Positions 2,844 through 22,013 of a stretch of 35,030 nucleotides of DNA are shown in pieces. Position 1 is the stretch's first letter, and every line of letters starts with the position of its first letter. Origin of the DNA: a virus; the IMG/VR virus record IMGVR_UViG_3300025769_000394, positions 1 through 35,030 of that record. The stretch is one strand, 5' to 3'. The position numbers and the translations under genes were made by a program. Under the pieces are notes generated by a model. The model made no database searches. It was not told the origin of the DNA and worked only from the letters and a program-made list of their open reading frames with translations.

Positions 2844-2852
2844 GAGAAAACT

Positions 2853-3428: not shown

Positions 3429-3429
3429 A

Positions 3430-3654
3430 ATGTATTATCTTACTGTACTTGTAGCTTTACTTTTTGTTTCAAAGGACGGTACAATTTATCCAATGTATGA
3501 AAGTAGTAATGTTGGTCCTTTTATAAATCAAGAACTTTGTGTAGAATATGCAAATGGTTTTATGGACTACGTAAACCAATTTTCTAATACTAAAATTGAA
3601 AAAATTAATTGTGTAACTGAAAAGCAGTTAAGAGGAATTAAAATAAATGGCTAG
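3430..3654 (+). CDS. Small secreted or membrane-anchored protein
   Basis: A 74-residue protein starting at ATG 3430, one base after the TAA of the previous gene. An upstream in-frame start would run through the neighbour's coding sequence and is less likely. Residues 1-13 (MYYLTVLVALLFV) form a hydrophobic N-terminal segment with no charged residue, acting either as a short signal sequence or an anchor. The mature part has two cysteines (in ELCVEYANG and INCVTEK) that could form a disulfide in the periplasm. The gene overlaps the start of the next one by eight bases (ATAAATGGCTAG), so it is translationally coupled. No family recognised. Confidence 0.6.
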   Translation: MYYLTVLVALLFVSKDGTIYPMYESSNVGPFINQELCVEYANGFMDYVNQFSNTKIEKINCVTEKQLRGIKING

Positions 3655-4651
3655 TACTTATACTACAAACATTCGCCTTGAAAAGCAGGGAGACGGAGAA
3701 AATCCAAATAGTTGGGGTACAATTCTAAATCAAAATGTTATTGACATTATTGATCAGGCAATTGCTGCTTATACTACTATTTCTCTTTCTACTGTTGACG
3801 TTACACTAACTACTAATGACGGTACTACTGACCAAGCACGTTCACCTTTTCTTGAACTACAGGGAACAGTTTCAAGTTCATTAAATGTTATTATTCCAAG
3901 CCTTCCAAAAGGGTACATGGTAAATAACAAATGTACATATGAAAATAGTGCTTCAGTAACTTTTAAGACTGCTAGTGGTTCAGGATATAACGCAACTGAA
4001 GGATCAATTTTTCTTGTAGTTTGTGATGGTACTTCCGTCTATAGCCTAAACGATACTTCCTTTAATCTTTCAGCTACTTATGCACGTCTTTCTGCTAGTA
4101 ATACATTTACAAATACAAATATTTTTACAAGTGCGGTAGATGTTAATGCACCCTTTACTGTAAGTGCAAGTGCTTCATTTACTGGTCAAACAGATTTTAC
4201 AAGTGCAGTAGATGTTAACGCACCTTTTACTGTAAGTGCAAGTGCTTCATTTACTGGTCAAACAGATTTTACTGGTCAAACAGATTTTACTGGTCAAACA
4301 GATTTTACTGGTCAAGTAGTTGGAGGAGTAACTACTTTAACTGATGCAACAAGTGTCGCAGTTGACTTTTCAAATGGTAATCAGTTTCTTTTACAATTAA
4401 CTTCAGCAGTAGGATCAAGCCGTACACTTGAAAATCCTACCAATACGCAAGTAGGGCAAGTAGGACATATCTATATTATTCAGGACGTTTCTACAGGTTC
4501 AAAAACAGTTTCGTTTGGTGATGCTTATAAATTTGTAGCAGGTACTCCACCTACAATTACTACTTCTGTAAGTGCAGTAGACCTGTGTGTATTTAGTGTA
4601 CGAGGAACTTCAGTAGTTGACGTTCTTGTTGCTCAAGATTTAAAACGATAG
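3647..4651 (+). CDS. Tail fibre protein with internal tandem repeats
   Basis: A 334-residue Ser/Thr/Val-rich protein. The N-terminal 50 residues (RLEKQGDGENPNSWGTILNQNVIDIIDQAI) match a pattern often seen at the start of phage fibre proteins (RLxxxGxGENxxTWGxxLNxxxxxIDxAI), probably the virion-anchoring part. The middle carries two 24-residue copies starting TSAVDVNAPF (residues 161-184 and 185-208) and then extra TGQTDF hexapeptides, a fibrous shaft-like region. The C-terminal 100 residues form a beta-rich tip. It is probably a trimeric side fibre. Repeats of this type can change length by slippage and so vary fibre length. Confidence 0.72.
   Translation: MASTYTTNIRLEKQGDGENPNSWGTILNQNVIDIIDQAIAAYTTISLSTVDVTLTTNDGTTDQARSPFLELQGTVSSSLNVIIPSLPKGYMVNNKCTYENSASVTFKTASGSGYNATEGSIFLVVCDGTSVYSLNDTSFNLSATYARLSASNTFTNTNIFTSAVDVNAPFTVSASASFTGQTDFTSAVDVNAPFTVSASASFTGQTDFTGQTDFTGQTDFTGQVVGGVTTLTDATSVAVDFSNGNQFLLQLTSAVGSSRTLENPTNTQVGQVGHIYIIQDVSTGSKTVSFGDAYKFVAGTPPTITTSVSAVDLCVFSVRGTSVVDVLVAQDLKR
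4127..4315 (+). repeat. Tandem repeats in the fibre gene (72-bp x2, 18-bp x3.5)
   Basis: Two adjacent 72-base units occupy 4127-4198 and 4199-4270. They encode the same 24 residues with a few silent differences. They run directly into an 18-base array (unit ACTGGTCAAACAGATTTT, encoding TGQTDF) at 4253-4270, 4271-4288 and 4289-4306, plus a half copy at 4307-4315. All units are multiples of three, so copy-number change keeps the frame. Confidence 0.95.
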
Positions 4652-4654
4652 TAA

Positions 4655-6523: not shown

Positions 6524-6795
6524 TGGCACTTTATCCTGAACTACCTTTATATGCAGATATTGAAAAGGTTGAACCTAGAGTACTATATCAGGACATGCTT
6601 GCATATGCTGGTCAGTTAAAGTTTCTTCTTGAACAAAGGGACAGACAACAAGATTTAGGATTTGCTTCACGTATTTATACTGTAATTAGTGTTACTGATA
6701 TTCAACGTCCACAGGAAGGTAACGTATCTTTTTCAACTTCTTCAGGTAAATTTAGAGGTTATGTCTCTAGCACAGGTTGGGTAGACTTTAATTAA
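6523..6795 (+). CDS. Small virion-region protein, unknown function
   Basis: A 90-residue protein whose ATG overlaps the TAA stop of the preceding tail gene (TAATGG), so translation is coupled. The first half is helical and acidic (ADIEKVEPRVLYQDMLAYAGQLKFLLEQRDRQQDL). The second half is a short beta region ending GYVSSTGWVDFN, a style of C terminus seen in small phage tail proteins. No catalytic motif. Probably a tail or connector component, by position only. Confidence 0.65.
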   Translation: MALYPELPLYADIEKVEPRVLYQDMLAYAGQLKFLLEQRDRQQDLGFASRIYTVISVTDIQRPQEGNVSFSTSSGKFRGYVSSTGWVDFN

Positions 6796-7014
6796 ATGAA
6801 TAAACAACTTATTGAAATGTTTGATCTTATCCAGAATAGCACATTTATTGAAAATGTCAATAATGGAATTGCCCCTCAAACTGATTATTTTGGTGCCAGA
6901 ACTGGTTCAGGTATGGCATATTCTAAAAACTCATTGTATAATAAACCCAATACGTTACATGCAGACATGACTAAAGAACAGTCACACTACATGAATCTAA
7001 GAGGAAAAAAGTAA
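6796..7014 (+). CDS. Small virion-region protein, unknown function
   Basis: A 72-residue basic/polar protein that starts directly after the stop of its neighbour (TAAATGAAT). It has an N-terminal helix (KQLIEMFDLIQNSTFIENVNNG) and a flexible Gly/Asn/Lys-rich remainder ending in LRGKK. No membrane segment or cysteine. The tight spacing on both sides (0 and 1 base) shows it is part of the virion operon. Function is not recognisable from sequence. Confidence 0.6.
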   Translation: MNKQLIEMFDLIQNSTFIENVNNGIAPQTDYFGARTGSGMAYSKNSLYNKPNTLHADMTKEQSHYMNLRGKK

Positions 7015-7015
7015 A

Positions 7016-8734
7016 ATGGCAGTAATGGTTAATAGGGATGCACCTTATAGTGGTCTTTCTAATCTTATGGCAATGCAGGGACGTTATGGCGACACTGAAC
7101 TGGTGCACATGTCTAAGCCTGAAGTTCAAGGACTTGCTTCACTTGGACAGCTAACCATTAATCCTGAAACTGGTCTTCCAGAAGCTTTTAGTCTTAAATC
7201 ACTTATTCCTTCTATTGCGGGTATTGCTGGTGCTATTCTCTTCCCTCCTGCTGCTGCTGCATTAGGAGCAACTAGTTTAGGAACAGGCTTTATGGGTGCA
7301 GCTATTGGCGCAGGTTTAGGTACTACTGCAGGTAGTTTAGCAATTGGTAAATCAACCGGTGATGCTCTTCTTAGCGGGGCAATGTCATTTGGTACAGGTG
7401 CCATTATGGGAGCATTCTCCGGTGTACCTGCTTTTGCGGATTCTGCAGGAGCAGCATTACCAGCAGGTGTTGATTCTGTAGGAAATTTATCTACAGCCTT
7501 TGATGATTCAGTTTTCACGGGTTTAACAGGTGATATACCAATTTTAGAAACAGCAACTCCTTCTGGTACAGCTTTATCTGGATCAGCAGGTATGACTACT
7601 CAACAAACTTTTAATTTAACAGAACCATTAAAAGCAGAAGCAGGATTTTTAGGTATTGGTGCAAAACCAGAAATTGCTGCTGGACCAGTTTCTCGTACCT
7701 CTCTTCTTGAAAGAGGATTTCAACCTGCAGATATTACAATATCTGAAAGAGCAGGGCAAATATTTTCTAAACCGAGTACATATGCTTCAGCAGGTTTGAC
7801 AGCTTTAACGTCAGAAGAACCTTATGAACTTCCTCCAATGGAACCTCGTCCTGAACCTGAAACTGGTTTTGGTACTCGTCAACTAGTTGGTGGTGAAGTA
7901 ATTCGTCCACCAAAAACTTCACAAGAAATTCTTGACGAAATGACTAGTGGAGGATATACACGAAGATTTACACCTTATCGTTATGCCGCTGAAGGTGGTT
8001 TAGTTGGTCTGCAGCAAGGTGGTATGCCTATGGCACAACCTCAGATGCAAATGCCACAACAGCAGCAACAACCTACTTCTGCAATGGCAGCAATGGTACA
8101 GCAGCCTGTAGCACAGCAACCAGTAATGGTACAGCCTGTTTTTCAACCACAGCCACAGCAGCAAATGCCCACGCCCACACCACAAGCTGTTCAACCTTTT
8201 GACCCTATGCAACAGTATCGTCAAACTTACATGGAAGTTGAAGGAGAACGTAGCAGAAAGAATACTGCATCAGCATTACAACAAGTTTCTGCACTAGGTG
8301 CTATGGCACAACAAGTCTTACAACAAGATAAAGCATTACAGGGAGTTACTCCACAGAAACCTTATGTACCACCAACTAACTATGGTTCACAAGTAAATCT
8401 TGGTGCAGGATTTAATCAGGGAGGATTAATTCGTCTTTCAGAAGGGGGACAATCAAAATATTTTGAAGGTCAGGTAGAAGTTGAAAATGGAGACGGAATG
8501 TCAGACGAAGTTCTGTTTGACGTTGAAGGGGATAATCCTGATATGGCACTACTAAGCCGTGACGAATATGTTCTTCCTGCTGATGTCGTTGCCATGATTG
8601 GTAATGGTTCTTCCAATGCAGGATCAGATAAACTTGACAATTTTGTTAAAGATATTCGTGAAGTATCTTTTGGTACTCGTAAGCAGCAAAAGCAAATGAA
8701 TGCGGAGAAAGGTCTACAAACACTAGTATCTTAA
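7016..8734 (+). CDS. Candidate internal virion / ejection protein
   Basis: A 572-residue protein. Residues 25-58 hold a block beginning GDTELVHMSKPEV and ending INPETGLPEAF, which recurs in the 848-residue protein downstream. Residues about 60-138 are long Gly/Ala-rich hydrophobic stretches that could insert into a membrane. Residues about 332-400 are rich in Gln, Pro and Met. Near residue 517 comes EYVLPADVVAMIGNGSSNAG, a motif I recall from many phage virion proteins of this class (roughly EYVxPADVVxxxGNGxxxAG). The mix of membrane-active and low-complexity regions fits a protein packed in the capsid and ejected into the cell envelope with DNA. No lytic transglycosylase motif is visible. 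Confidence 0.7.
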   Translation: MAVMVNRDAPYSGLSNLMAMQGRYGDTELVHMSKPEVQGLASLGQLTINPETGLPEAFSLKSLIPSIAGIAGAILFPPAAAALGATSLGTGFMGAAIGAGLGTTAGSLAIGKSTGDALLSGAMSFGTGAIMGAFSGVPAFADSAGAALPAGVDSVGNLSTAFDDSVFTGLTGDIPILETATPSGTALSGSAGMTTQQTFNLTEPLKAEAGFLGIGAKPEIAAGPVSRTSLLERGFQPADITISERAGQIFSKPSTYASAGLTALTSEEPYELPPMEPRPEPETGFGTRQLVGGEVIRPPKTSQEILDEMTSGGYTRRFTPYRYAAEGGLVGLQQGGMPMAQPQMQMPQQQQQPTSAMAAMVQQPVAQQPVMVQPVFQPQPQQQMPTPTPQAVQPFDPMQQYRQTYMEVEGERSRKNTASALQQVSALGAMAQQVLQQDKALQGVTPQKPYVPPTNYGSQVNLGAGFNQGGLIRLSEGGQSKYFEGQVEVENGDGMSDEVLFDVEGDNPDMALLSRDEYVLPADVVAMIGNGSSNAGSDKLDNFVKDIREVSFGTRKQQKQMNAEKGLQTLVS

Positions 8735-9165
8735 TGAAGTTAATAAAGATTGAAGCTAATGCCATACAAGTTACTTGGCCTTACGTTAAAGAATTTATTG
8801 AGAAACCTCTAAAAGTAAGTCAAGGAGAATATAATTTATTTGATATTTACTATTGTCTAATACATGGTCAACTTGATCTATGGGTAGGTGTAGACAGTAG
8901 TAAAGGTATTCTAGGGATAATGGTAAGTCAAGTAATTTATTACCCACAATATAAAGCATTAAATATTATGCTTGTTGGTACTGAACCAAACACAATTAAA
9001 TTATGGCTAGATTATTCTTGGAACAAAGAAACAAGTCCAATTTTAAAGTACGCTAAAGAAAATAATATTAAACGTATTGAAGGGTGGACAAGAGATGGTT
9101 GGTCTAAACATCTTAAAAATTATGGTTTTAAAAAGTACAGAACTGTGTTAACAAAGGAAATATAG
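8734..9165 (+). CDS. GNAT-like N-acetyltransferase-fold protein
   Basis: A 143-residue protein whose start overlaps the stop of the preceding gene (TTAATGAAG). The order of elements resembles a compact GNAT fold: an N-terminal helix around residues 15-30, strands ILGIMVSQVIYYP and ALNIMLVG (the usual beta4-beta5 core), a long helix, then IKRIEGWTRDGWSKHLKNYGFKKYRTVLTKEI at the C terminus, as in GNAT proteins where the last helix and strand read like KxGFKxxRxxL. The classical acetyl-CoA loop (Q/RxxGxG/A) is poorly preserved, so activity is uncertain. It sits between two ejection-type proteins, so it may act on a virion or host target early in infection. Confidence 0.6.
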   Translation: MKLIKIEANAIQVTWPYVKEFIEKPLKVSQGEYNLFDIYYCLIHGQLDLWVGVDSSKGILGIMVSQVIYYPQYKALNIMLVGTEPNTIKLWLDYSWNKETSPILKYAKENNIKRIEGWTRDGWSKHLKNYGFKKYRTVLTKEI

Positions 9166-9168
9166 AAA

Positions 9169-11715
9169 ATGGAAACTGAAGTAATCATTGGCAATCTTTC
9201 AAATGCAGATAAAATTTGTCTGTTTAATGCTTTGTATACTGATCTTGCAGGACAGGGTATTGAGGGAGACACTGAACTTGCTCATGTTAATACAGAAGAA
9301 ATGGCTGTACTACGTGCAATGGGTGGATCAGGTACTGTCAACCCTAATACTGGTCTTATTCAGTTTGGTGGTGGTGGTTCTCCTCCACCTCCTCCTCCCG
9401 CTACACAATCAGTTACACAGCAGACTGAATTTCCTTCAGAACTAAAACCTTATATTTCAGATGTACTAAGTAAAGCACAGGCTATTCAGGAGAAACGTGA
9501 AGCTGAAGGTTTTATTCCATATGAAGGTCCACAGATTGCAGAATTTACACCTGAACAGGAAAAAGCTTTTACTGGCATTGAAGGCATGGTAGGAGCAGGT
9601 CAACAGTATTTTGATCCTGCTACACGTCTAGCCGCTTCTTCAGCCTTTGCTCCTCGACCGGAAGAAGTACAGCAGTATATGTCTCCTTACATGCAGCAGG
9701 TTGTTGATATTCAGCAGCGTGAGGCAAAGCGTCAGGCAGACGTAGCAGCACAGCAGCTAGGTGCACAAGCAGTAGGTGCTGGTGGCTTTGGTGGTTCTCG
9801 TCAGGCCATTCTTGAAGCTGAACAACAGCGTAATCTACAACAGCAGCTAGGAGATATTCAAGCACGGGGACTAGCAGCAGCTTATGAAGATGCACAAGCA
9901 CGTCTTGCTGCACAGCGTCAACGTGAACTAGCTGCATCAGGACAGTTTGCAACGCTAGGTCAAGTTGCTCCACAGCAACAAATTAAAGAACTTACTGCAC
10001 TTGAAGCAATTGGTGCACAACGTCAAGCACAACAGCAACAGGCATTGGACATTGCTAAATCACAGTTTCAACAGGAACAACTATTTCCTGAACAGACACT
10101 ACAACAGTATCAGTCAGTTATTCGTGGTTTTCCTCTTGCTCCTACTACTTATCAGACAACTCAAACAACAACTCCTGCACCTAGTTACCTACAGCAAGCT
10201 GCGGGTCTTGGCACCGCTGCTCTAGGACTTTCTAAAGCTTTTGGCAGTGCCAAAGGTGGTAAAGTAGATAGTAAAAACGGTCTAGGTTCTATTGTTGTTA
10301 AACGTCAAGCTGGTAGTCAAATTGGTGGTATGCAGTTTGGTGGGCAAAAATTTGGCGGACAAAAATTTGGAGGAAGACGTTATGGTGGTTATAATCCTCG
10401 TTTAAAAGATTATCCTTATTCTCCAGAAAATGTAGAAGAATATAAAAAGAATTTAAAAGAACGTATTGCTGAGAAAGAAGCTATACTAGAAGCTTCAGGT
10501 ATTGAACAAAGAGAAAAAATGCGTTTAGATGAAGAACGTAGAAGTTTAGATGAAGAACGTAGAAAACGTATTTCTCAATTAGAAATAAAACGTCCCGGTT
10601 TATTTTCTGAATTATTTACACAAACAAAAGATAAACCTGCTTTGGAACAACAGCGAAAAGATATTGAAGCAGAACTTAGTATGCTGCGTAAGCAAACTTC
10701 ACCAGCACTGGAAGGAGACAAGCAGGATATTGACGAGGGTGGTGCCGTACGTTCACCTACTCCTGCTGAAATGAGATTTGATACTTCCAACGCCTCTCCT
10801 TCTAAAACTTCTGATCCGTTAGCTGATTTAGGCAAAAATATTATGGATGAAGTAGACTGGAATGAGGCTTATGATTTAGGCAAAGGTACTCCTGTTTCTC
10901 CAATTAAGGCTAATGCACAAAAAGCAGAAGTAGCAAATACTCTAATCAGTGCAAAAGAAACTACTAATAACCCTTATAAAATTCAGACATACGATAAGAT
11001 GCGGGAAGAATTTATGAATCTTTCCTCAAAGAAGAAAGACCTTCTTAAACAGCGTGAACAAGGACTTAATTCTGATCGTTGGCTGGCTATAGCTAATCTA
11101 GGTCTTAACATTATGTCTCAACCGGGTGGTCAAACATTCCTTGAAGCTATTGGTAAAGGTGCCAAAGAATCAGGAATAATTGGTTCTCTAGCTAAATTAA
11201 ATAAAGAAAAAAGAGATATTGCAGAAAATCTAGCAACAGTAGATATTGAAACTTTAATGAATGTTTATAAAATAGACAAGGATCAGGCTGCTGAGTTTGC
11301 TCGTGAACGTGACTATGACTTTAAAGTTAAACAAGCAGAAGATAATGTAGCAATTGCTAGAGAAAGAATTGCAGTTGCTAGAACAGCTGAGGAACGACAA
11401 CTTGCTCAATCTCAAGCAAGAGCTGCTCGTGAACAACAAAATATGCTTCTAAATGCACGTAAACCTCTTGGAAAAGATGCACAAAAAGAATGGACAAAGC
11501 AGTTTAAAGATATAGTTAAAGAAGATAATTTAAAAACTATTCTTCCTGAAGAAATAATTAAAAAATTTGATAAGTTAAACTTAGATAATGATGATAATTT
11601 AAAGGAAGGTTTAAGAATAAAAATGGCTGAAACAAGGGCATTAAAGCCTTCTTTAACTGAAAGAAAAATTTTAAGGGAAGCGTTTGCCCATGTATATGGT
11701 CCTTACCTAAGATAA
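9169..11715 (+). CDS. Candidate internal virion protein with coiled coils
   Basis: An 848-residue protein. Residues 33-66 (starting GDTELAHVNTEEM) repeat the motif of the 572-residue protein. Then come a Gly/Pro-rich hinge (GGGGSPPPPPP at 67-77), long Gln/Ala/Arg-rich helices (about 90-300) and a Gly-rich repeat (FGGQK-FGGQK-FGGRR-YGGYN at about 390-409). Charged heptad-like coiled coils follow (about 420-520 and 620-800), including an exact repeat of LDEERRS/K. The composition is that of phage core or ejection proteins that line the portal vertex. No enzymatic motif seen. The ATG lies three bases after the GNAT gene's stop, so all belong to one operon. Confidence 0.65.
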   Translation: METEVIIGNLSNADKICLFNALYTDLAGQGIEGDTELAHVNTEEMAVLRAMGGSGTVNPNTGLIQFGGGGSPPPPPPATQSVTQQTEFPSELKPYISDVLSKAQAIQEKREAEGFIPYEGPQIAEFTPEQEKAFTGIEGMVGAGQQYFDPATRLAASSAFAPRPEEVQQYMSPYMQQVVDIQQREAKRQADVAAQQLGAQAVGAGGFGGSRQAILEAEQQRNLQQQLGDIQARGLAAAYEDAQARLAAQRQRELAASGQFATLGQVAPQQQIKELTALEAIGAQRQAQQQQALDIAKSQFQQEQLFPEQTLQQYQSVIRGFPLAPTTYQTTQTTTPAPSYLQQAAGLGTAALGLSKAFGSAKGGKVDSKNGLGSIVVKRQAGSQIGGMQFGGQKFGGQKFGGRRYGGYNPRLKDYPYSPENVEEYKKNLKERIAEKEAILEASGIEQREKMRLDEERRSLDEERRKRISQLEIKRPGLFSELFTQTKDKPALEQQRKDIEAELSMLRKQTSPALEGDKQDIDEGGAVRSPTPAEMRFDTSNASPSKTSDPLADLGKNIMDEVDWNEAYDLGKGTPVSPIKANAQKAEVANTLISAKETTNNPYKIQTYDKMREEFMNLSSKKKDLLKQREQGLNSDRWLAIANLGLNIMSQPGGQTFLEAIGKGAKESGIIGSLAKLNKEKRDIAENLATVDIETLMNVYKIDKDQAAEFARERDYDFKVKQAEDNVAIARERIAVARTAEERQLAQSQARAAREQQNMLLNARKPLGKDAQKEWTKQFKDIVKEDNLKTILPEEIIKKFDKLNLDNDDNLKEGLRIKMAETRALKPSLTERKILREAFAHVYGPYLR
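10336..10380 (+). repeat. Gly-rich 15-bp tandem repeat
   Basis: Three 15-base units in frame at 10336, 10351 and 10366 encode FGGQK, FGGQK and FGGRR, followed by the related YGGYN. The third unit is diverged. It forms a short flexible Gly-rich linker in the 848-residue protein. Confidence 0.85.
10523..10564 (+). repeat. Exact 21-bp tandem duplication in a coiled-coil region
   Basis: Two identical 21-base units lie end to end (10523-10543 and 10544-10564). They encode seven residues each, one helical heptad of the LDEERRS type, so a duplication adds exactly one coiled-coil heptad. Identity at the DNA level implies a recent event. Confidence 0.9.
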
Positions 11716-11719
11716 ATTA

Positions 11720-14700
11720 ATGGCAACTAATTACTCTGATATTTTATTACCAGAAGAACCTACAGCACCAGCAGGTGTTGTAGCTGGTAGTACTACGCTT
11801 CCTGCAGATTATTCTGATATTCTGTTACCAGAAGGTGCAGTAGTATCTCCTGTTACTGTAGAAGACCCAGATGCTTTTTTAAATCGTGCTGGACGTTCAA
11901 TTAATGAATTTCAAAAATCATTCTTTGAAGGTATTGGTACTATTGGTCGTCAATTAGGCAGTACTAATTTAGAAGAATGGGCAAAAGAAAACGCTGAACA
12001 ACAAGAGTACGATATTAAAACTTATGGAAAACCAACAAGAACTTCTTCACTTACTGAAGGCTTGTCTGAAATTTCAAAGAAATATGACGATGAAGGTTTA
12101 GGTGCTGCTATTGAACGTGGTGCTATTCTTCTAAAGGACATGCTTGCAGACGCTGCCGGTTCTGCTGGTGTACCTGTAGCAGCAGGTATTGTTGGAGCAT
12201 TAGCAGGACCAGTTACAGGCGTAGCTGCAGTAGGTACTGGACTAGGTATTCTTCTTCCATTTATTGCAGGAGGTGCTGCTGGTGTAGGTCAAACTAGAGA
12301 AGAAGCTATTTCTATTGGTGCTGATCCTGATACTGCTGATAAAATTTCTATAGCTGCTGGTGCAGGTATGGGTTTTCTAGACAGAGTAGGTGCTGGACTA
12401 CTTATTAATAATCTTGTAAAACAATTTGGTAAAGAAGCTGTAGTTAAAAAATTAGCAGAAGAAGTAGGAGAAGAAACAGCAAAAACTGGAGTAGATAAAG
12501 CGTTGTCTTTTGCTAAGACAGTTGCTGTTGGTGGTACAAAAGCTGCTATAGGTGAAGCTGTAACTGAAGCAGGTCAAGAAGCTTTACAAATGTCTGCGGC
12601 TGGTTTAGCAGCAGGAAGAGGACTTATGCCTTATGAGGCTGCTGTTTATAATAAACGTCTTATTGATGCTGGCGCATTAGGCTTTGTCGGCGGTAAGGCT
12701 ATTGGCACAGTTTCTGATATTGTTGCTACTGGTCTTGAAGCTGATATGCAACGTCAAGCAGAAGATATTGAGCAAACAAAAGAAAAACTTTCTAAAGTTG
12801 TTGAAGATAACGAGACGGAAATTGCAAGTACTTTTGGTGTAGAAACAGGTCTTCGTAAAGAAAATAAACTACGTGAAAATCGTGGTGTATTTGCTAACAT
12901 ATTTAGAACTGCAGTATCTCCATTGTACGATATGGCTAGGCGAGGAGATTCGCAAGCTAGAATAGTTAATTTATTAATTAATTATCCAAATACAGTAAGT
13001 CAGCTAACCGGAACATACCTAGAACAACTTGAACCTGCTCTTCAAGATTTGAAGAGAAGTTTCCGCATTCCTCTTTTACAAAGAGAAATTCCAAAAGCAA
13101 TTAGTAGAAAAGTTTATAAGGTAATTGATACGGGTGTAGCAGATTCTGACGCAAGAGTTAATACGGCAGCGCAAACAATAAAAAATATTCTTGGAGAACT
13201 TCCAATTGATCCTGTTACTAAACAGGTACAACGTCCAGTTAAATTAAGTAAGTCTGAAGTTGAAAAAGCAATTTTTGAAGCAGAACCACTATACTCTGCT
13301 CAAGATGCTTTAGTAACAAATTCAATTACACAAGAACAATATAATACTCTTCAAGAAGAGGTAGCTGGTATTCGTCAGACGTATGAACAACGTGTACAAG
13401 CTGCTCCAAATGAAGAAGCAGCAATTAAAAATGACATAATTAAGTCAGATCAATTTAAATCTTTGTCAGGAAGAAAAATATTTGAACCTGAAATTACAGG
13501 TCTTTATAAACTTCTAACGGATGCTGGTATTGAACTTAACTTTGAAGAAAATTATTTTCCTCGTATTTATAAAACAGGAGTACTTGCACGTAAAAAAATG
13601 ACGCAAGTACTAATGCGTAAAGGCAGAACAAAACAAGCTGCTGCTTCAATTGTAGATAATATTGAAGCTAATGATGGTGCATATAGTTTTAAAGAAGGTG
13701 AAGTTGAGATTAATCGTCCAAGAACTAAGAAGATGTCAAATAAAGAAGAAGGCTTTGAAAAAAATCGTAGGCTTTCTCGTGAAGAAGTTGAAGCTTTAGA
13801 AGAAGCTGGTCTTGTAGAAACTGACATTGCAGGTGTTCTAAGTAAATACATTCTTGATGCAAGCAGAAGGACAGTAGGAAAACAATTAGCAGACGGAATT
13901 AACCAAGAACTTTCTACTATGTCTTCTGAAGATATTTCTCCTACTGAGTTAAATCTTATTAGTGATATTTACGACGCAACTCAAAATAAATTTAAACCTT
14001 TACAGGACAATAGATTTAAAAGCTTTCAAAAATGGTTTTTAACTAGTCAGTATATTTTAACACTGCCACTAGCTGGTCTTACTTCTCTATCAGAACCTTT
14101 AATTATTCTGTCCCGTATATCACCTAAATATGCTTTATTTGGTACAAGCAAAGCATTATTTAATAGCCTTTCAGCAGGATTAAGAAAGTTCTTTCCAAAA
14201 ATTAGTAAGACAAAATGGGAGAAAGCTTTTTCAAGTATTCTTCAAGGTGCAGACGGTGTTTTGGCAGAACGGTTTGGAGACATTTCAGGTGTAACTGTTT
14301 CTCGTAAGGTTACTAATGCTTTCTTTAGGGCAACCCTACTAACTACAATGACTCAGATCAGTCGTGATATTGCCTTTCAAGCAACTCAGATGCAAATGAA
14401 AGACGATTTAAAAACTATTCGTAAAGTTGAAGGGCCAATGAAAGGTCAAAAAACTAAGGGATATTATCAGGCTAAAAAACGTCTTCTTGAACAAGGCATT
14501 GTTGAACCTAATAATGAAGTAGTTCAAAATTGGGCTAATGGTCAAACTGAAGTTGAACCTGAGATTATTCGGAAAAGCATGTCTAAAACTGTAGACGAGT
14601 TTATTATGGCACCTAATGCCATTAACAGACCTTTATGGATGTCTGATCCTCACTATGCTTTAGCAGCACAGTTAAAAGGTTTTATGTTTGCTTTTGGTAA

Positions 14701-15214
14701 TATTGTAGGAACAAGAATGTGGAGAGAAGTTGTCGTTCCACTTGCAAAAGCTAAACGTATTCCTTTAGCTGAAGCACTAAAGTATGCTACTGCATTAACG
14801 GCGATTATGGGAATGTCCATGTTTATTCAGGGTGTTAAAGATCAGATACGTTATGGAGAAGATGCAGATGAAAGTCCATTTTCAAAACTAGAAGGAAATG
14901 AACAATTATTTGAAGCAATCCTACGTACAAATATCTTTGGTCCTATAGGATTTGTTGTTGATTCTTTAAGAGCAAAAAAATATGGATCAAGTTTTACTAC
15001 TGCATTACTAGGGCCAGCAGCTTCAACCCTAGAAGGTGTAGGTGTAGGTGCATATGACTATATTATTGATGGCGAACCAAGGAAAATATCTAGAGAAATT
15101 GCTAATTTAATACCTTTGTTGCGAAACCTTCCTCTTGTACGACCTATTAAAGAAGAAGTAGTAGACAAAATTGAAGAAAATTTTCAAGATGCTCGTGATT
15201 ACATTGTTGATTAA
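11720..15214 (+). CDS. Giant internal virion / DNA ejection protein
   Basis: A 1164-residue protein, the largest here. The N terminus carries two copies of YSDILLPE (residues 5-12 and 31-38). Residues about 144-190 are Gly/Ala-rich and hydrophobic and could form a membrane channel. The rest is mainly helical with charged segments (about 340-620), followed by a Trp/Phe-containing region (about 770-1000) and a conserved-looking tail ending FQDARDYIVD. Size, composition and position as the last long gene of the virion arm match large ejection proteins analogous to T7 gp16. I see no lysozyme-like or transglycosylase motif, so the enzymatic domain of gp16 is not evident. Call by analogy. Confidence 0.65.
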   Translation: MATNYSDILLPEEPTAPAGVVAGSTTLPADYSDILLPEGAVVSPVTVEDPDAFLNRAGRSINEFQKSFFEGIGTIGRQLGSTNLEEWAKENAEQQEYDIKTYGKPTRTSSLTEGLSEISKKYDDEGLGAAIERGAILLKDMLADAAGSAGVPVAAGIVGALAGPVTGVAAVGTGLGILLPFIAGGAAGVGQTREEAISIGADPDTADKISIAAGAGMGFLDRVGAGLLINNLVKQFGKEAVVKKLAEEVGEETAKTGVDKALSFAKTVAVGGTKAAIGEAVTEAGQEALQMSAAGLAAGRGLMPYEAAVYNKRLIDAGALGFVGGKAIGTVSDIVATGLEADMQRQAEDIEQTKEKLSKVVEDNETEIASTFGVETGLRKENKLRENRGVFANIFRTAVSPLYDMARRGDSQARIVNLLINYPNTVSQLTGTYLEQLEPALQDLKRSFRIPLLQREIPKAISRKVYKVIDTGVADSDARVNTAAQTIKNILGELPIDPVTKQVQRPVKLSKSEVEKAIFEAEPLYSAQDALVTNSITQEQYNTLQEEVAGIRQTYEQRVQAAPNEEAAIKNDIIKSDQFKSLSGRKIFEPEITGLYKLLTDAGIELNFEENYFPRIYKTGVLARKKMTQVLMRKGRTKQAAASIVDNIEANDGAYSFKEGEVEINRPRTKKMSNKEEGFEKNRRLSREEVEALEEAGLVETDIAGVLSKYILDASRRTVGKQLADGINQELSTMSSEDISPTELNLISDIYDATQNKFKPLQDNRFKSFQKWFLTSQYILTLPLAGLTSLSEPLIILSRISPKYALFGTSKALFNSLSAGLRKFFPKISKTKWEKAFSSILQGADGVLAERFGDISGVTVSRKVTNAFFRATLLTTMTQISRDIAFQATQMQMKDDLKTIRKVEGPMKGQKTKGYYQAKKRLLEQGIVEPNNEVVQNWANGQTEVEPEIIRKSMSKTVDEFIMAPNAINRPLWMSDPHYALAAQLKGFMFAFGNIVGTRMWREVVVPLAKAKRIPLAEALKYATALTAIMGMSMFIQGVKDQIRYGEDADESPFSKLEGNEQLFEAILRTNIFGPIGFVVDSLRAKKYGSSFTTALLGPAASTLEGVGVGAYDYIIDGEPRKISREIANLIPLLRNLPLVRPIKEEVVDKIEENFQDARDYIVD

Positions 15215-16722: not shown

Positions 16723-17250
16723 TTAGCGCCAAGAAGGGTCTTCAGATGTATTGTCTGTAGACCCTTCTTCTTCGTACTCATACTCTTCACCTTCTTCGTA
16801 TTCGTATTCTTCTTCCTCTTCCTCTGCCTCCATCATCTTTACAAACCATTCACATTTCATAAAGATTTTTAGGCTACGTTCCTCTCCAAGAACTTCAAGA
16901 GATTTAACAATCTGTTGTTCAAGTTCTTCTACGGACTTAGGTTCAACCTCTTCGTCTTTCTTCTTTACCTTAGACAGAAGTTCAAGTGCTTTAAGTGCAG
17001 AGTTAGTATGGTTGCTATTTTTGGCGGCGGTGTACTGCTGTTCAAGTTCAGACAGAACATCAACACTTGTTTCCATTTCACGTTCAAGGTTCTCGATACG
17101 TTCAAGAACTGCTGTGTTATGAATAAGCCTATGGCCTTGGTTATGTGCTGATCGTGGAGAATAACCGGCAGCTTTAGCAGCTTCTGTGGCATTACGATAG
17201 ATAATATATGCCTGTGCAAACTTTTCCTGCTGAGTAGTAAGTCCTGCCAT
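16723..17250 (-). CDS. Terminase small subunit with acidic tail
   Basis: A 175-residue protein. Residues 4-45 match the Terminase_2 (TerS) signature: LTTQQEKFAQAYIIYRNATEAAKAAGYSP, then QGHRLIHN, a helix-turn-helix that binds packaging-site DNA. Residues 50-120 form a coiled coil used for ring assembly. The C-terminal stretch (residues 141-162) is almost only Glu and Tyr, then STDNTSEDPSWR. TerS recognises concatemeric phage DNA and loads the large terminase at the portal. It is the last gene of the leftward arm, separate from the virion genes and without a large subunit beside it. The acidic tail is longer than usual and of unknown role. Confidence 0.85.
   Translation of the reverse strand: MAGLTTQQEKFAQAYIIYRNATEAAKAAGYSPRSAHNQGHRLIHNTAVLERIENLEREMETSVDVLSELEQQYTAAKNSNHTNSALKALELLSKVKKKDEEVEPKSVEELEQQIVKSLEVLGEERSLKIFMKCEWFVKMMEAEEEEEEYEYEEGEEYEYEEEGSTDNTSEDPSWR
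16731..16769. terminator. Hairpin between converging arms (inside the end of terS)
   Basis: A perfect 11-base inverted repeat: AAGAAGGGTCT at 16731-16741 and AGACCCTTCTT at 16759-16769, with a 17-base loop that can form an inner CAGA/TCTG stem. On the + strand it is followed by pyrimidines (CTTCG), so it best fits termination of the rightward transcript, and possibly both directions. The leftward tail after the stem is not T-rich. It overlaps codons for the last residues of TerS. Confidence 0.6.
16765..16830 (-). repeat. Purine-rich low-complexity tract encoding the Glu/Tyr tail of TerS
   Basis: The + strand here is almost only pyrimidine (TTC/CTC/CTT triplets). The minus strand encodes the run of Glu with interspersed Tyr and Gly (residues 141-162). 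It may form unusual DNA structure. Since terS genes often contain the packaging site, it could lie near pac, but nothing proves that. Confidence 0.6.
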
Positions 17251-17253
17251 GTA

Positions 17254-17658
17254 CTATTCCTTCATATTGCTGCGAGCAACGCCTTTGAATTTCTCTGCTG
17301 TACGCATACCACCAAGACCTAATAGAGAAAGCATTAGTGTCATAAGTGATTCTGTATCAAGTACAGGAAGAATAAGTGTAGGATACCAAATAGCTAGTCC
17401 CCAACTGGCAATAGGTGCAAGAATAAACTGCCAAGAAAAAGCAATACAACATACCCACATGATAGCAGGTCTTGCTCCAGCGACGAAGATGCTGGAATGC
17501 TTTGCCTGTTCAAGATTGGTTTGTGCTTGAGCAAGATCAAGTGCAATAATCTGTGACTGTAGTTCAGCGTTAAGTTTTGTCTTCAGGTCTTTGTCCTCAA
17601 CAAACTTGTCAAGAACTTTACCTGCTACACCTACTACTGCTTCTGCAATTCCTAGCAT
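17254..17658 (-). CDS. Three-TM holin (GTA_holin_3TM family)
   Basis: A 134-residue protein. The N-terminal half is an amphipathic helix (GIAEAVVGVAGKVLDKF, then AELQSQIIALDLAQAQTNLEQAK). The second half has GARPAIMWVCCIAFSWQF, a second hydrophobic segment through ILAPIASWGLAIW, and a third near SLMTLMLSLLGLGG, ending MRTAEKFKGV. The GxRPxxxW and LLGLGGMRTxEK blocks are typical of the 3TM holin family first named for gene-transfer-agent release. It would collect in the inner membrane and open it for lysis. Its start lies in the TAATG overlap with the preceding gene's stop, behind a GGAGG Shine-Dalgarno. No endolysin is next to it. Confidence 0.8.
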   Translation of the reverse strand: MLGIAEAVVGVAGKVLDKFVEDKDLKTKLNAELQSQIIALDLAQAQTNLEQAKHSSIFVAGARPAIMWVCCIAFSWQFILAPIASWGLAIWYPTLILPVLDTESLMTLMLSLLGLGGMRTAEKFKGVARSNMKE

Positions 17659-19952
17659 TATTCTACCTCCTTAAATAATGTTGTATAATCTGTCTTGTCG
17701 TACTGTGTAGAAGACTTAAATACTTCAGACACAAGAGTATTCTCACCGTACACATACAGATTCATTTCTATGTCTTTATTAGAAAATAACCGTTCACAAT
17801 CTTGTGCCATTGCAAGCAGTTCTCCAGTAGTCCAGAAATGTACACCATTAGTTTCAACCCTCATGTACTTCTGTTTACCATCATCCGTCTTACTGTTCTG
17901 CATTTCTTCAGTAACTTCAGGAACTGAACAATCAAAACCAAATAGATGGAAAGTCCTGCATCCTAGAATATGGAACATGCCAATTGCTCGCATTGCTGAA
18001 CAAGTACCGCCAGTAACAAATGTAGTATCAGCAGAAATATTAATTGTTTTGTTTACTTCAAACTTTTCACTGATAGCTTTATCACGAATTGCTTCACTAT
18101 AGGCGTGCCAACCATAAACATTGTCAGTCTTTGACATAATTACTTTTGTGGCACTAACGTCAGTCATTGAAGCGACAAGAAACTTGGTGCTAGGATCGAC
18201 TGTTTCAAACAAATCCTTACGAACAATACCATGTGTTGATACGCCTTCTACTGGTCGTGGATCAAGAATTACACAGGCATACGGTTTAATACCGTTCTTT
18301 AATAGTAGCGGATAACTATGCTTTACACAAATAACAGGTCCACCAGTTTCCTTGATCTTTTTCTTTAGTAGCTTCCAATCAATTGAAGGACCGGCAGACA
18401 CAATAATTGCTTCTTTATTGTTAGGCTTACATTGCTTAACAAAATTCCAACGTTTGATAAGATTGACATTTTCATTAATATTTTTAATAATGTCGTCCTT
18501 TGGCATTGAGTCACGCGGCTGTACTATAATAGGCACACGTAGCAGACTATCAGGTAGTGGACCTGCCTTGTCAGTGTTACGGCATACTGCAAGGTGGGTA
18601 ATGCCTCCACCCTTTACACGATCAGTAGAAGGAAGAACTACACAAGGCTTTCCGTCCTTTTCAGTTAGTTCTTTTACAAGCCTGTTAGTACCTTGATGTT
18701 CTTCTCCCAGAATGTTTCCTTCAGGATCAGCGGTAAAGTAATCGTCAAATACGATCAGATCACAATGGTTAAGATTACCATAATCAGAACGTACAGTTTC
18801 TTCACTATGTCCACCATCAATGTAGGCAAACTTACTCTTTAGTACTTCCTCACGTGCTGCAGGAAGTGTTTCTTTACTGTCTCCCTTAAACAGCTTAAAC
18901 GTAAATGTCTTATTGTTCTCTAACATCTTACCTGCAAAATCAGTAAGACGCTTTTCTACTGCTTCAAGAAGATTATGTGGCTTACTATTAAGTTCATAAG
19001 CATCTGATTCTTCAGTAGCTTCTTCAAACAGATCAAAGCCAACATAGTGTACCTTGTCATGCTTTTCAAAAGCAGCTAGTGCCATTTCAATTGCTCTGCC
19101 ACCATTCCATGTACCTACCTCAACAATTGTACCGTCACAGTAATGCCGTACTAGATCGGCAAGTTGTTTGTAGCGGGGCAGCTTAACGTCAGGAGCAACA
19201 GTATCTTTGGACAGATTGTTCTTTAAGTTACCCTTATAATGCACCATGTATTGAGACAGCGGTGAATTTTTAAATGCTGCTAGTCCTTTCACATTAGGTG
19301 TAAGATTGTGTGCTTTCATGCCATGAGCAATATAAATCTTTAGCAGACGTTCAAAAATAAAACCATCATGCCATTCACGATACATGATAGTTTCACCAAT
19401 GTCATAGCATCCACGCAGATCAGCGAGGAGATATAGAGGAGTTTCGTAGTTTAGGTTGAAGGCGACAAAAGAAGTTTCTGAATAGTCAGTATCCTTACGA
19501 CCAAGATGTACAATCTCTGCTTTATCAGGAAGAATCTTACTAATCTTTTCTTCTGAAAGAGGCTTTGTAGTTACTGTGTCAGCATCCAGCCAGATAAGCC
19601 AGCCACCCTGTACTTCATTCTCTGAGATTTCAAAAGCAATATCAGTCATTGCATAGACTTTGTGACACCACTTAACAGCATCCATACGCCAGTTATAAGC
19701 TACCTTGCCACCCGCTGTACCATCATAAAGCTTCATATTATCTCGGTAAGCAAGCATGTCTTCTACTTCATTTAGATTACGATACTCAATATTCTTTGCC
19801 TGTGGAAAAGAAGCAACAAGTTCTTCATCGCAATCGTGGTAGTAAGCTGTAAGGTGTAAGTCTTTATACCAGTTATCTACGACAGATTCAAGCATGTTTC
19901 TAGCATAACGCTCGTATCCATCTGCACTAAATGATGTAACAAATTTTATCAT
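17658..19952 (-). CDS. Three-domain fusion: glycosyltransferase, SAM methyltransferase, DUF115/MptE-like
   Basis: A 764-residue protein starting at ATG 19952, which has GGAGG six bases upstream; a longer in-frame start at 19991 would overlap the previous gene and is unlikely. Domain 1 (about 1-265) is a GT-A-like glycosyltransferase with a DxD-type motif (WLIWLDAD, 118-125). Domain 2 (about 268-475) is a class I SAM methyltransferase (EVGTWNGG 278-285, VGFD 304-307, IDGGH 378-382, FDDYF 402-406). Domain 3 (about 512-690) matches DUF115/6-hydroxymethylpterin pyrophosphokinase MptE-like proteins of the Maf type (VSAGPS 518-523, DPRP 564-567, FVTGGTCS 645-652, FGFDCS 671-676). DUF115 relatives include Maf proteins linked to flagellin glycosylation with nonulosonic acids. 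It probably builds or transfers a methylated sugar onto a virion or host surface molecule; the substrate is unknown. Confidence 0.75.
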   Translation of the reverse strand: MIKFVTSFSADGYERYARNMLESVVDNWYKDLHLTAYYHDCDEELVASFPQAKNIEYRNLNEVEDMLAYRDNMKLYDGTAGGKVAYNWRMDAVKWCHKVYAMTDIAFEISENEVQGGWLIWLDADTVTTKPLSEEKISKILPDKAEIVHLGRKDTDYSETSFVAFNLNYETPLYLLADLRGCYDIGETIMYREWHDGFIFERLLKIYIAHGMKAHNLTPNVKGLAAFKNSPLSQYMVHYKGNLKNNLSKDTVAPDVKLPRYKQLADLVRHYCDGTIVEVGTWNGGRAIEMALAAFEKHDKVHYVGFDLFEEATEESDAYELNSKPHNLLEAVEKRLTDFAGKMLENNKTFTFKLFKGDSKETLPAAREEVLKSKFAYIDGGHSEETVRSDYGNLNHCDLIVFDDYFTADPEGNILGEEHQGTNRLVKELTEKDGKPCVVLPSTDRVKGGGITHLAVCRNTDKAGPLPDSLLRVPIIVQPRDSMPKDDIIKNINENVNLIKRWNFVKQCKPNNKEAIIVSAGPSIDWKLLKKKIKETGGPVICVKHSYPLLLKNGIKPYACVILDPRPVEGVSTHGIVRKDLFETVDPSTKFLVASMTDVSATKVIMSKTDNVYGWHAYSEAIRDKAISEKFEVNKTINISADTTFVTGGTCSAMRAIGMFHILGCRTFHLFGFDCSVPEVTEEMQNSKTDDGKQKYMRVETNGVHFWTTGELLAMAQDCERLFSNKDIEMNLYVYGENTLVSEVFKSSTQYDKTDYTTLFKEVE

Positions 19953-19954
19953 GG

Positions 19955-20704
19955 TTATCCTCCAATTATTCTGGTATAAAAGTCTTTCCACTCTTCAGCA
20001 TACTTGTCATCTATCTCTCGCTTACCCTTCCAAGTAGGATAAACTGGTCCACCCGTTGTAAAGTGTACATTCTTTGGATTTACATCTGCGGCTGAAGTTC
20101 CGTCTAGCCAGTTCCATTCAACTGGAATATCTCCAATAGGAAAGATATCAATCCATTCAAAAGCATGTAACCAGCTTCCACTTCTAACATTAACATCCGA
20201 AATTGTCAACTCTTTCATCCAAGGATGATCACAATTCCATAGAACAAAAGATGACCAGTTCTTTCTGTTATAGACGGTTTGTACCTGCCCATCCATCTTT
20301 TCTTTTTCTTGAGGAACGTGGATATGCTTTACACAGCTAATAACATTCTCTTTATCTGATCCATATACATCAAATACTTCTGTAATGTCTGAACGAACAA
20401 ACATATCAGCATCCATAAATAATGCTAGACCCGACATCTGGTTTAGAAATGGTACTAGAAACCTAGTAAAGCTAAACTCAGTAGAGAAGGGTTTGCCATC
20501 AAAAACATCAACCTTCGTTCCTTCTAAGTTATACTCTGGACTGCGCCAATACAAGCCAGCCCTGCGAACTTCCTTCTGTACAATAGGGACTATATTGTAC
20601 GTATGGGTAGTGTGCATACGTATAGACTTATCTAGCACTCGAACATAGTCATGTTCACGAGGATCATAGCCTATGTATATTGTTGGTATTTTATTGATAG
20701 GCAA
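19955..20704 (-). CDS. Glycosyltransferase (GT8-like, GT-A fold)
   Basis: A 249-residue protein with a TTG start at 20704: no ATG lies before the conserved beta-1 strand IPTIYIGYDPREH, and AGGAG lies eight bases upstream. DxD motif: LFMDADMF at residues 95-102. A C-terminal VHFTTGGP (213-220) is the kind of histidine-Gly motif that helps bind the metal and nucleotide in GT8-type enzymes. NWSSFVLWNC (149-158) matches the N/S-rich acceptor region of this group. It transfers a sugar from a nucleotide-sugar donor; acceptor unknown. Its last codons carry the Shine-Dalgarno of the fusion protein downstream, so the two are coupled and probably work in one pathway. Confidence 0.8.
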   Translation of the reverse strand: MPINKIPTIYIGYDPREHDYVRVLDKSIRMHTTHTYNIVPIVQKEVRRAGLYWRSPEYNLEGTKVDVFDGKPFSTEFSFTRFLVPFLNQMSGLALFMDADMFVRSDITEVFDVYGSDKENVISCVKHIHVPQEKEKMDGQVQTVYNRKNWSSFVLWNCDHPWMKELTISDVNVRSGSWLHAFEWIDIFPIGDIPVEWNWLDGTSAADVNPKNVHFTTGGPVYPTWKGKREIDDKYAEEWKDFYTRIIGG

Positions 20705-20715
20705 ACCCTGTACTC

Positions 20716-21144
20716 CTACTCTATCGTAATTTGTTTTGGTTTTTCTGCTTCAGGAATAATCTTTTCAATTTCAATTTTAAGAATACCATTCTTTAAGGAA
20801 GCATTAATTACTTTCATGTATTCTGAAAGATAGAATACACGGGTAAACTTACGAGCAGCAATCCCACGATAAGTGCAGGAAGGTGCATCTTCTTGCTCAC
20901 GTGTTTCACCGCGAACAGTAAGAATGTTAGGTTCAATTTCAATTGACAGATTGTCTTTATCAAACCCTGCAACTGCCATCTCAATAATGTGCTTATTGTC
21001 TTTTCTATAAATGTTATGTGGGGGATAGGCAGTTGAGTTAAGTACTGATTGTGCAACGTAACTCATTGGTTCAAAATGCTTTTCAATATCAAGCATAAAG
21101 TTACGCATCTTTTCAAATTGTGGGGAAAAGGAAATTAGATTCAT
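20716..21144 (-). CDS. Hsp20 / IbpA-like small heat-shock protein
   Basis: A 142-residue chaperone. The alpha-crystallin domain spans about residues 42-128, including NILTVRGE (73-80), YRGIAARKFTRVFYLSEY (92-109) and the NGIL signature (119-122). The C-terminal ITI motif (139-141), the I-x-I that joins dimers into oligomers, is present. It holds unfolding proteins in a refoldable state in the cytoplasm. Hsp20 genes are recurrent in marine phages, where a role in virion assembly or host stress is assumed. It heads the leftward late block, behind a strong promoter and a terminator-like hairpin. Its Shine-Dalgarno AAGGAGG sits partly in a hairpin loop. Confidence 0.9.
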   Translation of the reverse strand: MNLISFSPQFEKMRNFMLDIEKHFEPMSYVAQSVLNSTAYPPHNIYRKDNKHIIEMAVAGFDKDNLSIEIEPNILTVRGETREQEDAPSCTYRGIAARKFTRVFYLSEYMKVINASLKNGILKIEIEKIIPEAEKPKQITIE

Positions 21145-21145
21145 G

Positions 21146-21161
21146 TATACCTCCTTGTATA
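21146..21161 (-). promoter_or_regulatory. Small hairpin holding the hsp20 Shine-Dalgarno
   Basis: On the transcript, TATAC and GTATA can pair (5 bp) with a loop AAGGAG, that is the ribosome-binding site, one base before ATG. The stem is weak and AU-rich. Such elements can work as RNA thermometers in hsp20 leaders, but this one could be chance. Confidence 0.3.
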
Positions 21162-21172
21162 AGCGAGTTGTT

Positions 21173-21206
21173 AAAAAGGCCAGTCCGCATTTGCCAGACT
21201 GACCTT
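21173..21206 (-). terminator. Intrinsic terminator-like hairpin before hsp20
   Basis: On the minus strand, AAGGTCAGTC pairs with GACTGGCCTT (10 bp with one G-U) around an 11-base loop, followed by TTTTT then AACAAC. It fits a terminator for the replication block that ends at 21239. It also starts within a few bases of the predicted start of the promoter at 21210-21238. Confidence 0.75.
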
Positions 21207-21209
21207 GGA

Positions 21210-21238
21210 AGTATACTTGTTAATTTTTAGTTTGTCAA
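21210..21238 (-). promoter_or_regulatory. Sigma70-type promoter for the hsp20-terS block
   Basis: On the minus strand TTGACA (-35, complement of 21233-21238), a 17-base spacer, and TATACT (-10, complement of 21210-21215). The -35 box is consensus and the -10 has five of six consensus bases. It lies directly after the TAG stop of the preceding gene, so no coding constraint explains it. Confidence 0.75.
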
Positions 21239-21445
21239 CTACTTTTTTTCAAACTGCTTTGCAAGAATGCGAATAGTTGTACTGGCATCAGTCATAAATA
21301 GTGAAGGTACAAAAGCATGTACCATTAACTTTAGACTGGCACTAATTAGCTTATAGATAATATAGAAAGCACCTAGCATATGGCACAGATAAGACATTCT
21401 TACTGACCTAAGATGGTATCTAGATTGTTTGTAAATATTATTCAA
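21239..21445 (-). CDS. DUF6356-like small membrane-associated protein
   Basis: A 68-residue protein. The pattern HLRSVRMSYLCHMLGAF, then MVHAFVPSLFMTDAS followed by a charged C terminus (ILAKQFEKK) matches my memory of the DUF6356 family (HPxSVGxxYxxH, then LxHAxxPxLFxxTAS). A hydrophobic segment lies at about residues 18-48. The gene overlaps the end of the oxygenase upstream by eight bases, so the two are coupled. Function unknown; it is the last gene before the terminator at 21173. Confidence 0.6.
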   Translation of the reverse strand: MNNIYKQSRYHLRSVRMSYLCHMLGAFYIIYKLISASLKLMVHAFVPSLFMTDASTTIRILAKQFEKK

Positions 21446-22013
21446 AGTCTGGTCCTCTAAACCAACATGCTAAACTATAGCGTTGTCCCTTGGTTACTGG
21501 TGTTACCCTATGAAACATAAAGGAAGGAAAGACAAGAATACTTCCCTTGTTTCTCATTTCCTTTACTGTGTTGTATCTGGAGTTAGCATCAGGAGTACAC
21601 CACCTTTGTATCTGAAAGTCACCTCCCTCAAAACTATCATTGAGAGAAACACATAGTGTAAGCTTTCTGATTACAAGATCGTCTTCACTTTCAACGCCAA
21701 CATCCATATGCCAGTCGTACTGTCCCCCTTGGCTGTACGTGCTGAACTGTGGTGTTTCAAAACACATAACATGAAAGTTCCAATTAGCTGCCTCGTTTGC
21801 TTTCTGTGCATAAAGCTGAAGTATTTCAGATAGTTCTGAATTGTTCAGCCAGCTAATTGAACTTTCCCGTACATCAGGATCAAAAAATGTTCCGTCCTTC
21901 TCGTGTAAACCACCAGAGTTTTGCTTATTGGCAAGTCCCATAGTAACAAGACCATCACAAAAAGCTGCTGGTAGTTCTTTGTCAAACACGTAGTAAGGAA
22001 ATTCACTGATCAT
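21438..22013 (-). CDS. 2-oxoglutarate/Fe(II)-dependent dioxygenase (PKHD-type)
   Basis: A 191-residue non-heme iron oxygenase. The iron triad is H102 and D104 (WHMDVG) with H168 (FMFHRV); R178 (GQRYSLACW) binds 2-oxoglutarate. The double-stranded beta helix is visible as GGDFQIQ and GSILVFPSF. It resembles P4Hc/PKHD hydroxylases, which hydroxylate proteins or small molecules with O2 and 2-oxoglutarate. Such genes are common in marine phages, with substrate unknown. It lies between MazG-like and DUF6356 genes with short spacing or overlap, so it is part of the leftward operon. Confidence 0.85.
   Translation of the reverse strand: MISEFPYYVFDKELPAAFCDGLVTMGLANKQNSGGLHEKDGTFFDPDVRESSISWLNNSELSEILQLYAQKANEAANWNFHVMCFETPQFSTYSQGGQYDWHMDVGVESEDDLVIRKLTLCVSLNDSFEGGDFQIQRWCTPDANSRYNTVKEMRNKGSILVFPSFMFHRVTPVTKGQRYSLACWFRGPDFE

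Follow-up and report, generated by a model that had tools for sequence, protein, structure and literature searches.

A fused glycosyltransferase, methyltransferase and Maf-like protein and its GT8-like partner as a core feature of one clade of uncultured phages

Maf and FlmG glycosylate flagellin in the cytoplasm, before export (PMC7591256), and the N-terminal domain of Maf weakly resembles methyltransferases (PMC11339370). Glycans are also present on mycobacteriophage capsids (PMC11256854). In the chlorovirus PBCV-1, a methylated glycan on the major capsid protein is finished by A064R, a 638 amino acid (aa) protein with a GT-GT-MT arrangement of glycosyltransferase (GT) and methyltransferase (MT) domains (PMC9614988). 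Here we describe a phage protein that joins a GT-A type glycosyltransferase, an O-methyltransferase and a DUF115/MptE-like part resembling Maf, together with the GT8-like protein encoded directly upstream of it. Both genes are found in the IMG/VR virus record IMGVR_UViG_3300025769_000394, a linear viral contig of 35 kb that makes up the whole stretch analysed (35,030 nucleotides, termed the window).

With Maf of Magnetospirillum (5mu5; PF01973) the fusion protein shares the core fold of its third part, placed after a Rossmann-type domain. In contrast to Maf, the fusion has before its Maf-like part a domain that hits methyltransferase families, carries an extra GT-A domain at the N-terminus, and is encoded by a phage gene that is not near flagellin genes. 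The C-terminal helical (FliS/flagellin-like) domain of Maf is absent: the match runs to residue 751 of the 764, and no further domain is modelled. Because this domain is missing and both donor and acceptor are putative, filing the protein as a Maf is not warranted. The fusion resembles A064R as one viral polypeptide joining two glycosyltransferases and a sugar O-methyltransferase, but the order of the parts differs, the second glycosyltransferase of the fusion is Maf-like, and A064R comes from an algal virus with N-glycans; a functional analogy alone is claimed, and common descent is unsupported. A UniProt entry from an uncultured Caudovirales phage (A0A6J7X5Q0, 714 aa) apparently has the same architecture and is named 'Methyltransferase domain containing protein'; it matches our family model over its full length (E 1.3e-64, 776 columns, 32% identity). 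Thus, the fusion is new as a described kind alone. No published description of it was found: a literature search for DUF115, phage and glycosyltransferase gave none, and one for MptE-like and phage gave unrelated titles.

Domain structure and gene coupling

The first-pass annotation of this DNA had proposed a single polypeptide of 764 residues with three parts. The frame is indeed open, from 17658 to 19991 on the minus strand with the ATG at 19952 as its natural start, and Pfam and fold matches were obtained for the parts (Table 1). The MptE-like family PF01973 was matched at residues 488-678 with 63.1 bits (curated cut-off 34.6), and residues ~265-430 matched the families Methyltransf_24 (PF13578; 31.3 bits, cut-off 26.3) and TylF (PF05711; 25.8 bits, cut-off 23). 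Among 58 diverse family members, the MptE-like match was present in 56 and the Methyltransf_24 match in 48 at E≤0.01. Part 1 matched no Pfam family, and a search of solved structures by sequence, with the fusion protein and the family profile, gave zero matches; the folds came from structure search with an AlphaFold2 model built from 58 sequences (mean predicted local distance difference test, pLDDT, 89.3). As the predicted template modelling score of this model is 0.55, the relative placement of the domains is uncertain.

Table 1. Coordinates of the fusion gene, its parts and the neighbouring features in the window
Feature	Position	Strand	Remarks
Fusion gene, 764 aa: GT-A + O-methyltransferase + Maf/DUF115-like	17658..19952	-	ATG start; 122 distinct full-length homologues
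Part 1, GT-A glycosyltransferase, aa 1-250	19203..19952	-	DxD D123-D125, conserved YREW.D; glycogenin fold match
Part 2, class I COMT/TylF-like O-methyltransferase, aa 251-462	18567..19202	-	EVGTWNGG 278, IDGGH D379, FDDYF D403/D404
Part 3, DUF115/MptE-like (Maf_flag10), aa 484-751	17700..18503	-	PF01973; Maf fold match
Part 3, motifs			SAGPS 519, CVKH 542, LDPR 563, STHG 572, GGT 648, FGFD 671, TTGELLAMAQD 708
GT8-like glycosyltransferase, 249 aa	19955..20704	-	TTG start; MDADM at 97; PHROG 28018
GGAGG Shine-Dalgarno of fusion	19959..19963	-	within last two codons of GT8-like gene, 6 nucleotides ahead of fusion ATG
Terminase small subunit	16723..17250	-	PF03592 61.1 bits
Holin (GTA_holin_3TM)	17254..17658	-	Pfam match; start overlaps stop of fusion
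hsp20	20716..21144	-	PF00011 67.7 bits; first gene of probable transcription unit
Sigma70-like promoter TTGACA-17-TATACT	21210..21238	-	ahead of hsp20-GT8-fusion-holin-terS

Structure prediction, the test set for the three-part reading, returned GT, methyltransferase and DUF115 folds. The best solved structure for residues 484-751 was Maf (Z 19.5, root-mean-square deviation 3.4, 229 residues), which agrees with the proposed link of the DUF115 part to Maf-type flagellin glycosylation enzymes. Foldseek aligned Maf over 599 columns, setting its N-terminal domain against part 2 and so suggesting a possible homology of these two; the structural aligner matched part 3 alone. The Pfam name MptE-like points elsewhere, to a pterin or small-molecule diphosphokinase, with the fusion making a small metabolite, and the model does match archaeal HPPK/MptE of Methanocaldococcus jannaschii (8sd5; Z 14.7, 197 residues). 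However, the match to Maf is both higher and longer, part 3 is constantly fused to a GT and has a GT8-like neighbour, and no pterin genes were noticed nearby, which makes a metabolic role of this kind very improbable.

Residues 244-462 matched cation-dependent O-methyltransferases with Z of ~15-16, including the sugar O-methyltransferases MycF and CalS11, and the S-adenosylmethionine (SAM) motif and acidic metal residues of cation-dependent class I enzymes are both present. A hit to 'DNA methyltransferase' (phrog_2675, E 7e-5) was ruled out as the identity of part 2, since Pfam and fold agree on small-molecule or sugar O-methyltransferases. Residues 1-248 matched glycogenin, a GT8 enzyme (Z 14.7, 195 residues), with alpha-1,3-galactosyltransferase, xyloside xylosyltransferase and LARGE1 as additional Foldseek matches, and WLDADTV (121-127) ends a predicted strand of the GT-A fold model. 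The three-part reading thus stands at the level of the fold, and the DxD, SAM and acidic motifs are placed at strand ends in the predicted structure. All three parts are very probably glycan-related enzymes.

The GT8-like protein was modelled with a pLDDT of 92.7 and matches WbbM, LgtC, glycogenin and a capsid-glycan GT of chlorovirus PBCV-1 (2p6w). Its score against PF01501 is 14.8 bits, under the curated cut-off of 24.3; the family is matched by 38 of 51 relatives at E≤0.05, and D98 and D100 are invariant in the relatives. A simple recent duplication of the fusion's GT was rejected as the origin of this gene, because profile comparison detects no relationship. Neither the GT8-like protein nor the fusion has a strong hydrophobic segment. 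AGGAG at 20717-20713 precedes the TTG start of the GT8-like gene, and its 3' end reads ...GGA GGA TAA; the Shine-Dalgarno sequence of the fusion lies in these final codons, as expected from the translational coupling proposed earlier. The fusion is also coupled downstream, where its stop codon and the start of the holin gene overlap as TAATG (17660-17656).

Distribution, optional methyltransferase part and module exchange

Scans of IMG/VR yielded 19 relatives, then at least 560 stretches encoding one, of which the best 80 were kept, and then two further clades. The ORFs (open reading frames) examined comprise 185 with GT-MT-DUF and 16 with GT-DUF architecture, the remainder being contig ends, single-domain or bacterial forms. 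The partnership with the GT8-like gene is nearly constant: it adjoins 205 of 207 fusion ORFs, 181 within 150 nucleotides and 24 at a gap of 489-677 nucleotides (in these ORF counts, overlapping loci of one contig were counted separately). The search for the same fusion in other phages produced 122 distinct full-length triple-domain proteins, all from uncultured phages. In the pairs tested, non-synonymous substitution (dN) lies far under synonymous substitution (dS) in all three parts, which, together with these 122 proteins, rules out a chance ORF. Phages carrying the fusion are common in IMG/VR, but in the annotated phage collection searched, neither the full fusion nor phages near-identical to that of the window were found. 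The function has therefore escaped notice.

As a check for bias, a survey was started from a different gene encoding a Cas4-like exonuclease. The pair is present in all 20 contigs that have at least 56% exonuclease identity and reach the site; more distant phages by this protein are without it, even where their contigs extend well beyond the site. The GT8-like gene and the fusion are thus a core feature of one large clade of marine phages and not a stray cassette. We rejected an origin of the complete fusion in bacteria or prophages, as it is absent from 385 alphaproteobacterial genomes and a pattern scan of genome contigs gave just one GT-MT match. Bacteria have the GT-MT version alone: Nisaea and two other genomes of the same order encode a GT-MT protein. 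The Nisaea protein (L163 7980-9344, 454 aa) hits the family profile with E 9.6e-132; its GT and MT are those of the fusion, in the same order. Different from the phage fusion, it has no Maf-like part and is encoded in a chromosomal glycan-type locus, where a GT8-like neighbour was not found.

In a tree built without the MT columns, proteins lacking the MT part are found at three separate places (L188; L209/L213/L219; L216); losses and later gains of the part were judged from this tree and the bacterial GT-MT outgroup alone. The acidic MT residues are retained in 46 representatives; in four others, the second site reads NN or NG. The L016 clade retains the MT region with altered motifs, IGSGN for IDGGH and MDH for FDD. 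This part, which lacks the metal-site motif in the L016-L020 clade (IGSGN, MDHFF), nevertheless looks to be under purifying selection (dN 0.07, dS 0.59, one pair), and may therefore serve an altered function instead of being dead. The GT motifs (W.DxD, YREW.D) and the Maf-like motifs (CVKH, LDPR, STHG, GGT, TTGEL) are nearly always kept. A methylated sugar, which the first-pass annotation had placed at the centre of a one-polypeptide glycan pathway, is thus no constant element, as three branches lack the MT part and a fourth has lost the metal motif. What remains of that pathway are the three enzyme folds, the link to Maf, the GT8-like partner and the clustering with holin and terS.

The window and L006 are ~97-99% identical over hsp20 and in the stretch that runs from fusion residue ~100 to terS; over the GT8-like gene and fusion residues 1-95, identity drops to ~65%. 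For L008 and L012 the pattern is reversed, with ~87-98% over this latter block and mostly 58-82% elsewhere. It follows from this contrast that a block of ~1 kb has been exchanged by recombination. Similar comparisons suggest a swap of only the GT8-like gene between L043 and L092, of the MT part when L043 or L046 is compared with L052, and of the Maf-like part between L147 and L150. Module swapping with kept motifs looks like a diversification of product structure, and would fit a surface glycan under diversifying selection.

Relatives of the parts and the proposed acceptor

The genes that follow the Nisaea GT-MT gene, named by reading their sequences, are GDP-mannose-dehydratase-like and FkbM-like. 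In pelagiphage Mosig, a homologue of the fusion's GT lies directly before a GT8-like homologue, with FkbM-like methyltransferase genes upstream, and in phage ct7QV12 a homologue of the fusion's GT is close to a 'glycosyltransferase tibC'. A bacterial fusion of reversed order (L226 601-2280) has an FkbM-like methyltransferase placed before the same GT. These contexts argue for a role in glycan synthesis. A bacterial stand-alone match to the Maf-like part (L230 1378-2184) adjoins sulfotransferase-like genes.

DNA-modifying phage glycosyltransferases exist, and the pair lies after nucleotide-metabolism genes, so that protection of the phage DNA against restriction comes to mind. The relatives of the parts, however, are found in glycan-type rather than DNA-modification clusters, Maf relatives modify protein, and no hydroxymethyl-pyrimidine gene was recognised in the window. 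Nothing in the analysis supported a DNA target, and we regard it as hardly credible.

With moderate confidence, we propose that the GT8-like protein and the fusion form a soluble glycan-building pair, working in the manner of Maf plus A064R, with a phage structural protein as the most likely acceptor. Folds, motifs, gene coupling, conservation and module exchange are observed; what the enzymes catalyse and with which donors, in which order they act, and the acceptor and benefit are inferred as follows. Both proteins would be soluble cytoplasmic enzymes that assemble a short glycan out of nucleotide sugars of the host, with sugars added by the GT-A part of the fusion and by the GT8-like enzyme. 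The Maf-like part would transfer a cytidine monophosphate (CMP)-activated sugar, nonulosonic- or Kdo (3-deoxy-D-manno-octulosonic acid)-like, or would join a sugar to protein, while the methyltransferase, where present, would O-methylate the product and thereby cap it. The structural protein would be modified before assembly, as flagellin is by Maf or FlmG before export. We favour a virion protein on account of the likeness to Maf, the coupling to holin and terS, the swapping of alleles and the gene order in the L014 clade, where the pair comes after the structural genes and shares their strand instead of lying with holin and terS.

As a target, the virion is nonetheless an evenly balanced call, and several points weigh against it. 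The fusion lacks the C-terminal helical domain of Maf. Soluble GT8 and sialyltransferase-like enzymes also make lipopolysaccharide cores at the inner membrane, and a cytoplasmic location therefore does not prove that the target is a protein. In bacteria, the GT-MT relative is found together with surface-polysaccharide-type genes. As the unit is headed by hsp20 and has its own promoter, strictly late timing is not established. Finally, no nonulosonic acid synthesis genes were recognised in the window, so the host would need to supply the donor sugar.

The main rival to a virion target is a host surface glycan, such as the lipopolysaccharide core or capsule, which the pair would alter, for example, against superinfection or against re-adsorption of progeny to debris. 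The Nisaea neighbourhood fits such a role, as do the matches of the GT8-like model to WbbM and LgtC, enzymes that make polysaccharide or lipooligosaccharide in bacteria, and the Mosig relatives, which lie within a block of FkbM-like and sulfotransferase-like genes. Yet the pair is accompanied by no gtr-type membrane protein or flippase, it is coupled to holin and terS, and part 3 comes closest in fold to a protein glycosyltransferase; we consider modification of the host surface rather unlikely. For the preferred virion target, we tentatively suggest that Maf-type O-glycosylation may belong to the core of the clade, with swappable modules and a methyl cap that is gained or lost altering the virion glycan in a manner similar to serotype switching. 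Flagellin-type (Maf) protein glycosylation would then extend to phages, and abundant marine phages would bear swappable glycan coats. The compact polypeptide, with two GT-type parts and an optional methyl cap, would also offer a test case for the evolution of glycan-building enzymes by fusion and a possible tool for glycoengineering.

Gene neighbourhood and leader of the transcription unit

The window encodes DNA polymerase A, primase/helicase, ribonucleotide reductase, ThyX and the terminase small subunit; its structural block (438-15214) is on the opposite strand from the terminase small subunit, fusion and GT8-like genes. The placement of the pair between hsp20 and holin/terS, noted at the outset, was corroborated by Pfam and PHROG matches of the flanking genes. 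The DNA polymerase is closest to those of pelagiphages HTVC104P and HTVC103P (50% identity). Uncultured 'group IV' genomes with unknown hosts are related to these two phages (PMC8528129), and the window phage probably belongs near them. Phages of its clade probably infect marine Alphaproteobacteria. The pair is not found in HTVC103P, within the stretch of genome read.

Several neighbouring genes have features of their own. The terminase small subunit (16723-17250, minus strand) ends in a highly acidic tail with an E/Y repeat, EEEEEEYEYEEGEEYEYEEEG. A 2OG-Fe(II) oxygenase gene (21438-22013, minus strand) lies directly ahead of the hsp20-headed unit in many relatives. In the structural block, a 572-aa protein (7016-8734, plus strand) has zero PHROG matches at E≤0.001.

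The sigma70-like promoter is strong and conserved: sites scoring at least 10/12 are present in 27 of 34 relatives against 6.7% of shuffles. A hairpin comes directly after it (promoter and hairpin together 21176-21238, minus strand), with a stem that varies on both sides between relatives and a T-run behind it in many of them; an attenuator-like or RNA-stabilising role is possible. The hsp20 leader (21139-21209, minus strand) gives a weak full-length match to the Rfam family ROSE_3 (18.5 bits, gathering threshold 43; E 0.43 in 1 kb). The motif U[UC]GC[UC]...AGGA is present in 17 of 25 hsp20 leaders, compared with 1 among the 461 leaders from ten further gene families in the same phages, and pairs with the Shine-Dalgarno sequence in several predicted folds, suggesting the hsp20 leader as a possible ROSE-type RNA thermometer.

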